Shown here: piece after piece, positions 4,692 through 6,147 of the stretch
Numbering within the stretch: position 1 is the stretch's first letter
Layout: every line of letters starts with the position of its first letter
Origin: Metallumcola ferriviriculae
GTDB lineage: Bacteria > Bacillota > JADQBR01
Direction: 5' to 3'
Assembly (NCBI RefSeq): GCF_035573695.1
Contig: NZ_CP121694.1
Span: 906,501-970,500, forward strand
DNA: 64,000 nt
Notes under the pieces: generated by a model
What the model saw: the letters and a program-made list of their open reading frames with translations, nothing else
Told to the model about the DNA's origin: nothing
The model's database searches: none
Made by a program: the position numbers and the translations under genes

Positions 4692-4720
4692 TTGATTAAT
4701 TGCCTATTTTGTGGCATAAT
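4692..4720 (+). promoter_or_regulatory. Sigma-A promoter of the tRNA locus
   Basis: TTGATT (4692-4697) and CATAAT (4715-4720) are separated by 17 bp, just upstream of the tRNA-like remnant and the tRNA-Ala gene. Confidence 0.65.
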
Positions 4721-4744: not shown

Positions 4745-4794
4745 TTGGGGCCATAACTCAGCTGGAAGGACATCTAAGCTGAAATGCTCCCCAG
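4745..4794 (+). pseudogene. tRNA remnant upstream of tRNA-Ala
   Basis: GGGGCCATAACTCAGCTGG (4747-4765) mirrors the first 20 bases of the real tRNA-Ala 66 bp downstream (GGGGGCGTAGCTCAGCTGG). After a short unrelated middle, GCTCCCCA can pair with the TGGGG start like an acceptor stem. There is no anticodon arm or T arm. It may be a decayed tRNA copy. Confidence 0.45.
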
Positions 4795-4812: not shown

Positions 4813-4888
4813 GGGGGCGTAGCTCAGCTGGGAGAGCGCTAGACTGGCAGTCTAGAGGTCAGGGGTTCGAGCCCCCTCGTCTCCACCA
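4813..4888 (+). tRNA. tRNA-Ala (anticodon GGC)
   Basis: Full cloverleaf of 76 nt. The acceptor GGGGGCG pairs with CGTCTCC (two G-U), the D arm is GCTC...GAGC, and the anticodon stem CTAGA/TCTAG holds loop CTGGCAG (anticodon GGC, reads GCC). The T arm is AGGGG-TTCGAGC-CCCCT, the discriminator is A and CCA is encoded. Confidence 0.95.
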
Positions 4889-4896
4889 CATTTCAT

Positions 4897-4965
4897 GCGG
4901 GATCCACTAGGTGGATCAGGGCCGTCCAGGCCTTGGTTCGGGTGCGATTCCTGAGTCCCGCTCCA
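4897..4965 (+). ncRNA. tRNA-Gly-like 69-nt element, copy 1
   Basis: It folds as a compact cloverleaf. The acceptor is GCGGGAT/GTCCCGC with U discriminator and encoded CCA. The D stem CCAC/GTGG has only a 3-nt loop. The anticodon stem AGGGC/GCCTT holds loop CGTCCAG (TCC at the anticodon position), and the T stem TCGGG/CCTGA has loop TGCGATT. G1-C72, C2-G71, C35, C36 and U73 are glycine identity features. The D-loop GG, U33 and U55 of a normal tRNA are missing, so ordinary elongation use is doubtful. It may be a tRNA mimic, a decayed tRNA or a recombination target. A near-identical copy lies at 6046-6114. Confidence 0.55.
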
Positions 4966-4976
4966 GTAGATAAGAT

Positions 4977-5005
4977 AAGAGTAACCTTTTGGTTGCTCTT
5001 TTTTT
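4977..5005 (+). terminator. Terminator after tRNA-like copy 1
   Basis: AAGAGTAACC pairs with GGTTGCTCTT and is followed by T7. The same stem in variant form follows copy 2. Confidence 0.85.
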
Positions 5006-5204
5006 ATGGTGGAACAGTATGTCGCTTTCTCGTATTAGGTTTTATTTCATTCAAGGATATTAGGGTATATCTGTAGAAACGGTATTAATAGGCTTATTGC
5101 AGTAATAAGTTAAAAAATAAATGCATTTGGATACAAAAACGCACTTTACAAGAAATGCTTGCAGGATGCTGATGTTATTTTTATTTTATATGAGGAGGCA
5201 GATT

Positions 5205-6011
5205 ATGAATGTATTAAAGCTCTATTCAAGAATTTTGTCAAAAGCAAAAGAAGAAGGAGCATCACTTGTGGGAATTGCAAATGTGCAAGATTTAAAAAAG
5301 GCACCTTCTTACACAGCCGCACCTGTAATGCCACCTTATAATGGTGTTGGTGCAAATAAGGAAAGAATAGAAGGCCTTAAAAGCGGTGAAGTGAGGTGGC
5401 CTCAAGGGGCAAAGTCTGTAATTGTTATAGCCTATGCTCACCCTAAAGAAAAGCCTGAGTTGGACTTTCGTTATGGAAGTAAAGGCCCAAGTGGTAATAA
5501 AAAACTTATTCAGATTGCTGATAACCTCATAAAATGGCTGCAGCAGGAGCATCTTGGGGTCAACGCAGTCAATTTGCCCTACCATGTGGAAAGGGGCGGT
5601 ATATACTTAAAGGATGCTGCTGTATTTGCTGGTTTGGGGTGCATCGGAAGGAACAATTTACTTGTTACACCTGAATATGGCCCTCGTATTAGGTTAAGAG
5701 GCATAGCAGCAGATATTAATCTCCCTTCCACCGGACCCACATTTTTTGACCCATGCGAATATTGCGACGAACTATGCAAGGAGCCTTGTCCTCAGGATAG
5801 TTTTAAGGAACAAGTATATACCTCTCAACAACTTGGAAGAAAGGAACTGCCGGGTAGAGTTGGTGATTATAACCGTACAATATGCAATATTCAAATGAAA
5901 ATAGATGAAGATAAGGCAAAACCGCAAAGCGTAGAAGGTATTGAACGAAGGGTGCGTGTAGTCAAGTACTGCAGGGTCTGCGAGTTTTCATGCCCGATAG
6001 GACAGTCTTAA
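5205..6011 (+). CDS. QueG-like 4Fe-4S protein (COG1600-related), cargo between tRNA repeats
   Basis: A 268-residue protein related to the Fe-S reductase family that includes epoxyqueuosine reductase. Visible parts are the GLGCIGRNNLLVTPEYGPRIRL core (about 145-167) and two cysteine clusters, CEYCDELCKEPCP and CRVCEFSCP, which can hold Fe-S clusters. It is shorter than true QueG, lacks the C-terminal HEAT region, and a genuine QueG is encoded at 42352. Its function is therefore probably not queuosine synthesis; corrinoid-dependent reductases are relatives. AGGAGG precedes the ATG at 5205, and the upstream in-frame ATG at 5121 lacks such a site. Codon use is more AT-rich than the neighbours, and repeats enclose the gene. 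Confidence 0.75.
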   Translation: MNVLKLYSRILSKAKEEGASLVGIANVQDLKKAPSYTAAPVMPPYNGVGANKERIEGLKSGEVRWPQGAKSVIVIAYAHPKEKPELDFRYGSKGPSGNKKLIQIADNLIKWLQQEHLGVNAVNLPYHVERGGIYLKDAAVFAGLGCIGRNNLLVTPEYGPRIRLRGIAADINLPSTGPTFFDPCEYCDELCKEPCPQDSFKEQVYTSQQLGRKELPGRVGDYNRTICNIQMKIDEDKAKPQSVEGIERRVRVVKYCRVCEFSCPIGQS

Positions 6012-6018
6012 ACATAGA

Positions 6019-6045
6019 ACGAGCCCCATCGCCTCCAGCATATTT
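6019..6045 (+). repeat. Degenerate copy of the tRNA-Ala 3' end
   Basis: ACGAGCCCCATCGCCTCCAG matches the T-loop to CCA end of tRNA-Ala (CGAGCCCCCTCGTCTCCACC at 4869-4887) with a few changes. It leads into tRNA-like copy 2 exactly as the real tRNA leads into copy 1. Confidence 0.7.
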
Positions 6046-6114
6046 GCGGGATCCACTAGGTGGATCATGGCCGTCCAGGCCTTGGTTCGGGTGCGATTCC
6101 TGAGTCCCGCTCCG
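6046..6114 (+). ncRNA. tRNA-Gly-like 69-nt element, copy 2
   Basis: Identical to 4897-4965 except for G to T in the anticodon stem (AGGGC becomes ATGGC, which breaks one pair) and the final A to G, which destroys the encoded CCA. The changes suggest that this copy is decaying or needs no CCA in DNA. With the preceding tRNA-Ala tail and following terminator it forms a direct repeat of roughly 130 bp. Confidence 0.5.
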
Positions 6115-6120
6115 ATACTT

Positions 6121-6147
6121 AAGAGTAACCGAAAGGTTACTTTTTTT
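6121..6147 (+). terminator. Terminator after tRNA-like copy 2
   Basis: AGTAACC-GAAA-GGTTACT stem-loop with a T run. It is related to the terminator at 4977-5005. Confidence 0.9.

Follow-up and report, generated by a model that had tools for sequence, protein, structure and literature searches.

Genomic islands that integrate at the 3′ end of a tRNA gene leave a regenerated tRNA on one side and a displaced fragment on the other (PMC4383910). Staphylococcus aureus has three tRNA-Gly in which GG18-19 is replaced, the T-arms are altered and EF-Tu binding is weak, and one non-proteinogenic tRNA-Gly of this species has been shown to be charged by GlyRS and to supply the pentaglycine bridge (PMC4052509, PMC8007984). 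The locus described here, from Metallumcola ferriviriculae (G000, a genome of one contig of 3.72 Mb), recalls both systems. It lies in a window of 64,000 nucleotides, the whole stretch of DNA that was analyzed (C1:906501-970500), and the positions given for its features are those of this window. As the joint best explanation, to which we give a probability of roughly 0.6, we propose that the locus holds relics of insertion at the 3′ end of a tRNA-Ala transcript carrying a non-translational tRNA-Gly.

All features of the locus are on the forward strand. The likely promoter of the tRNA-Ala transcript (TTGATT-17-CATAAT, 4692-4720) was found directly upstream of the tRNA by a consensus scan, which is weak (4 matches for 3.9 expected); the promoter motif TGGCATAAT is also present upstream of tRNA-Ala in two relatives, Bacillota Soudan_17 (G001, same family) and G002 (same class). 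The intact tRNA-Ala(GGC) (4813-4888; Rfam tRNA, 64.4 bits) is the single tRNA called by ARAGORN in the whole window. It is followed by the first copy of a 69-nt tRNA-Gly-like RNA (4897-4965), supported by its fold, its homologues and compensatory changes, and by an intrinsic terminator with a 10-bp stem (4977-5000; terminator scan, fold z -5.9). The cargo gene then encodes a 268-aa protein of the cobalamin/4Fe-4S type (5205-6011, ATG at 5205 and stop codon at 6009-6011). Starting 8 nt after its stop codon, alignments place a 3′ remnant of tRNA-Ala, from the T-loop on (6020-6045), then the second copy of the tRNA-Gly-like RNA (6046-6114; 67 of 69 positions identical to copy 1, the encoded CCA being changed to CCG) and a second terminator with a 10-bp stem (6121-6144), in which the stem of terminator 1 is retained and the loop UUUU is replaced by GAAA.

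The repetition of tRNA tail, tRNA-like element and terminator after one gene, reported in the first-pass annotation, is real: the sequence from 4868 onward recurs from 6020, where the alignment starts at the CGAG of the T-loop, and the repeated terminator runs to 6144. The direct repeat itself covers 101 nt at 85% identity (4875-4975 and 6024-6124), the related terminator following the second copy. Since the whole-genome search returns exactly two copies of the element (best E 1.3e-99 and 1.7e-35), chance is excluded as the origin of the repeat. The two copies differ at 4 of 25 positions in the tRNA remnant versus 2 of 69 in the element (Fisher p 0.04). Because the element is near-identical while the tRNA remnant has diverged, this result suggests that the cargo transcript still delivers a useful RNA from copy 2 at its 3′ end, or that copy 2 was homogenized.

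The tRNA-like character first attributed to the 69-nt element was confirmed, and the element proved to be no mere by-product: it is a structurally conserved, widespread tRNA-Gly-like RNA. Copy 1 adopts a cloverleaf fold (-35.4 kcal/mol, z -3.0) with GCGGG...CCCGC-U-CCA at its ends and NCC in the loop of the anticodon arm, and the T-loop of the family is UGCRAYU instead of UUCRANY (UGCGAUU here). The T-loop of the staphylococcal tRNA-Gly also contains UGC. The D-arm is tiny, with a loop of 3-4 nt devoid of GG (UAG here, 3 nt). The T-stem is without G49-U65 or G51-C63, which by the criteria of PMC4052509 corresponds to weak EF-Tu pairs. Bacterial glycine identity is carried by G1-C72, C2-G71, U73, C35 and C36 (PMC9976931), and this set is present in both copies and in most homologues, U73-CCA and the T-loop being imposed by the pattern, and hence no independent evidence, in matches of the pattern search. 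In an alignment of 16 members, which supersedes an earlier fold from 5-6 sequences, double compensatory changes occur at 20 of 24 pairs and 94.1% of the cells are paired, a count inflated by the fitting of the alignment to the structure model but still in very large contrast with the controls, since none of 500 shuffles reached the observed value and slid structures remained below 50%. With MAFFT, the anticodon arm came out misaligned across 22 members, so that no third covariance model was built. We considered whether the element could simply be a degraded duplicate of tRNA-Ala and rejected this, its acceptor stem, U73 and loop being of the glycine type and its structure covarying.

An RNA with NCC in its loop and a full glycine acceptor end could be an unusual glycine tRNA that still takes part in translation, and ARAGORN calls the member of genome G369 a tRNA-Gly(CCC). 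However, ordinary tRNA-Gly genes with CCC, TCC and GCC anticodons are already present in the source genome, so a translational need for the element is unlikely. The structure speaks against it too: NCC is predicted to sit in a loop of 5 nt that caps an extended stem, the D-loop of 3-4 nt has no GG, and T54-psi55 is missing from the T-loop. Nor does ARAGORN call the element in the window, and we consider such a translating tRNA very improbable. The element also falls below the gathering score of every Rfam family, and at relaxed thresholds Rfam gave just the tRNA-Ala and chance matches; it thus escapes standard annotation, being recognized neither by tRNA finders nor by Rfam.

BLAST with the element as query against 100 relatives gave no useful information beyond the family, and covariance models were therefore used. 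Matches of 76-102 bits were obtained in all three genomes examined of the class (two elements in the source genome, three in G001 and one in G002) and of 34-54 bits in other Firmicutes and one viral contig. In G002, the element sits behind tRNA-Asp(GTC) and a terminator then follows. With a second covariance model the element was found behind tRNA-Ala(GGC) in G112, G076 and G121, and with no neighboring tRNA in G369; around G112, the class-level search covered three genomes. Scanning 85,000 genomes, as well as viral contigs, with a sequence pattern added four Firmicutes records (L096, L124, L115 and L117), and homologues are found in at least six Firmicutes lineages. Most genome-wide pattern matches, like the weak covariance-model scores (25-40 bits, ~80 nt), were ordinary tRNA-Gly genes and were discarded. 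The scan also returned alphaproteobacterial look-alikes and several phage contigs, some of the matches being in phage tRNA arrays. Short tRNA-Gly-like RNAs with UGCRAYU T-loops were seen on viral contigs L150, L155, L159, L165, L166, L167, L168, L169, L171 and L181, part of their features being fixed by the search pattern; in L166, L167, L169, L171 and L181 they sit between a tRNA-Gly and a tRNA-Val within long phage tRNA arrays. The alphaproteobacterial look-alikes (L121, L109 and L114) belong to genomes without a PF02388 match and could reflect either another use or, in part, chance matches. The literature that we searched holds no description of this RNA family or of the locus, which is no proof of absence.

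Comparison of the tRNA-Ala(GGC) locus between relatives revealed the same layout, tRNA-Ala/element/cargo/element, in two other genera, with unrelated cargo in each. In G001, where the upstream genes are those of the source genome, tRNA-Ala, element and terminator open a cargo of 4.1 kb (a nucleotidyltransferase, an amidohydrolase, a CxxCxxCC protein and a 554-aa protein), after which come a tRNA remnant and then a second element. G121 belongs to another family; its cargo consists of a TRAP transporter and two dehydrogenases, and the second element follows, preceded by a T-loop remnant. In G112, tRNA-Ala and the element are followed by AbrB/RelE-like, nucleotidyltransferase and Phd-like genes, named from sequence and not by family search. 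The syntenic tRNA-Ala of G002 has a plain terminator and no second copy, the element being wholly missing at that site. These data are in agreement with the view, expressed in the first-pass annotation, of a locus acting as an insertion site at which the 3′ end is re-created. The single-gene nature proposed there is not general, as the cargo ranges from 0.8 to 5.6 kb and is not always one gene, and the mechanism is only deduced, no integrase or repeat-carrying vector having been found. Conservation of the gene between both repeats, which would point to an old operon-like structure, is not seen: neither G001 nor G002 has the gene, and its distribution in the phylum is patchy (7 of 250 genomes).

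The same repeats could have arisen by tandem duplication of tRNA-Ala, element and terminator, the second tRNA having decayed and the genes having entered by ordinary recombination, with no site-specific enzyme. The third element of G001, on contig C96, retains a nearly full-length degenerate tRNA-Ala before it, which fits a duplication, and sits behind a HepT/nucleotidyltransferase pair. Upstream of its intact tRNA, the window also contains a degenerate copy of the tRNA-Ala 5′ half (about 4746-4780; repeat search and local alignment, GGGGCCATAACTCAGCTGGAAGGA), overlooked in the first-pass annotation and without counterpart at the G001 locus. Moreover, the repeated block (about 125 bp) runs beyond the tRNA through element and terminator and exceeds the usual length of an att core, and no integrase is nearby. 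On the other hand, the right-hand remnants of the three paired loci (window, G001 C84 and G121) all start at the same point, the CGAG of the T-loop, and the cargo differs at each locus. Contig C38 of G001, where a protein with 77% identity to the 554-aa cargo protein is encoded, bears a tRNA-Ala 3′ remnant without any element. This remnant and the degenerate tRNA with element on C96 also count in favor of insertion. Weighing both sides, we regard duplication as a serious but distinctly less probable explanation than insertion. The C96 region (L045, 25-3660), in which a HIT protein, a McrB-like AAA protein and the HepT/nucleotidyltransferase pair surround the third element copy, is probably part of a defense-rich tRNA-Ala island.

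The cargo gene of the window had been described as AT-rich and QueG-like. Its GC content (42.3%) is that of the window (42.2%) and the first description does not hold, GC3 (33.6%) being somewhat below that of its neighbors. As to the second, the resemblance exists and is distant: the protein shows weak similarity to the QueG/reductive dehalogenase superfamily over the cobalamin-domain and Fe-S region, and remains far under the curated cut-offs of both families (TIGR00276, 35.9 bits against 200; TIGR02486, 41.4 bits against 160.35). A homologue in G112, 76% identical, shares an operon with a keto-acid-cleavage enzyme and has no tRNA in its vicinity. Since homologues (L205, 5025-5837, in G112; L206, 4797-5618, in G185) adjoin a keto-acid-cleavage enzyme and a BCCT-type transporter, there is a hint that these genes act in small-molecule catabolism rather than in tRNA modification.

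Both the chemistry of the insertion and the function of the RNA are inferred. In the insertion reading, the 3′ end of the tRNA-Ala transcript unit would be a recurrent insertion site, where DNA enters at the T-loop/3′ end of the tRNA. The left side would keep the intact tRNA, element and terminator, and the right side would receive the displaced tRNA 3′ remnant, element and terminator, with variable cargo between them; the right-hand element copy would then be conserved while its tRNA remnant decays. The insertion would be site-specific and of the tyrosine-recombinase type, through a recombinase acting in trans or since lost. In agreement with the first-pass annotation, which saw no integrase in the unit, a PF00589 search of G000, G001, G112 and G121 found none in the cargo, and in the source genome none occurs within about 77 kb, the nearest tyrosine recombinases being at 829 kb versus 911-912 kb for the locus. 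Searches for carriers revealed no phage or plasmid record in which remnant and element form an att site. The recombinase may have acted in trans or been lost, or the repeat may stem from plain duplication. Triplets of adjacent tyrosine recombinases are present in the source genome (C1:635985-637450, 827386-829863, 1170896-1173333, 1797695-1800136 and 2146097-2148534); they resemble recombinase-in-trio elements, some copies score identically, and none is near the locus.

Concerning the role of the RNA, the tRNA-like fold could be a signal for processing or stability: cleavage by RNase P/RNase Z would set the 3′ termini of both the tRNA-Ala transcript and the cargo mRNAs, with no amino acid carried. 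The extra copies of the window, G001 and G121 each lie at the 3′ end of a gene and in its orientation, three of the four within about 8-25 nt of a stop codon, and a terminator comes after those of the window and G001. Such a signal has no need to conserve the glycine identity positions, and the element of G369 lies upstream of genes while those of G002 and of the phage arrays lie among tRNAs, which makes this role improbable.

By analogy with the staphylococcal tRNAs, the element is probably a special-purpose glycine carrier. It would be the second product of the tRNA-Ala(GGC) transcript, excised by tRNA-processing enzymes, charged by glycyl-tRNA synthetase and poorly bound by EF-Tu, hence kept outside translation, and would donate its glycine, most likely to FemAB-type ligases that act on cell-wall precursors. 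FemAB is present in all 11 element-bearing Firmicutes genomes, against a background of 108 of 250 in the phylum (43%), and the source genome has its PF02388 match at C1:572275-573261. The chance of this co-occurrence is 0.43^11 (~1e-4) if the genomes are independent, and 0.43^6 (~0.006) for the about six lineages that they represent. Adjacency to FemAB was observed once, in G369, where ~30 nt separate the end of the element from the FemAB gene that follows (PF02388, E 9e-20). At L148/L214 (2313-4597) of this genome, two FemAB genes in tandem come directly after the tRNA-Gly-like RNA. Against this role, G121 has FemAB although its two element copies are both damaged, G035, from the family of G112 and G076, has FemAB and no element at E<=1e-6, and copy 2 of the window encodes CCG in place of CCA. 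If the element were a dedicated glycine carrier for wall synthesis, non-translating tRNAs would be far more widespread than the staphylococcal case, tied to FemAB and perhaps phage-borne. The locus is also a clean case of a tRNA 3′ end that repeatedly gathers different genes with no visible integrase. The broadest reading, that of an undescribed, widespread family of non-translating tRNA-Gly-like RNAs in bacteria and phages, whose gene forms with the tRNA-Ala 3′ end an integron-like capture site for one or a few genes, is speculative and in our opinion improbable.

Compared with the non-proteinogenic tRNA-Gly that S. aureus and S. epidermidis use for the peptidoglycan bridge, the element shares the glycine identity elements, a D-loop without GG, an altered T-loop and a FemAB-type ligase in the genome. 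In contrast, its cloverleaf is more reduced (D-loop of 3-4 nt, long anticodon arm, 5-nt loop) and too odd for ARAGORN or Rfam, it occurs in association with the 3′ end of tRNA-Ala or tRNA-Asp, and it belongs to Clostridia-like lineages, with a predicted role as glycine carrier. Integron gene cassettes resemble the locus by a single gene with a structured repeat within a few bases and by varied cargo at the same kind of repeat, whereas here the PF00589 search detects no IntI-type gene nearby, the arrays are limited to one or two units, and the repeat is a tRNA remnant with a tRNA-like RNA instead of attC. With the genomic islands inserted at tRNA sites by a tyrosine integrase (Islander, PMC4383910), the locus has in common an intact tRNA with a displaced 3′ fragment, variable cargo and recurrence at one tRNA. 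Unlike these islands, it has no integrase in or near the cargo, which goes down to one gene, and its repeat spans a second RNA gene and a terminator.
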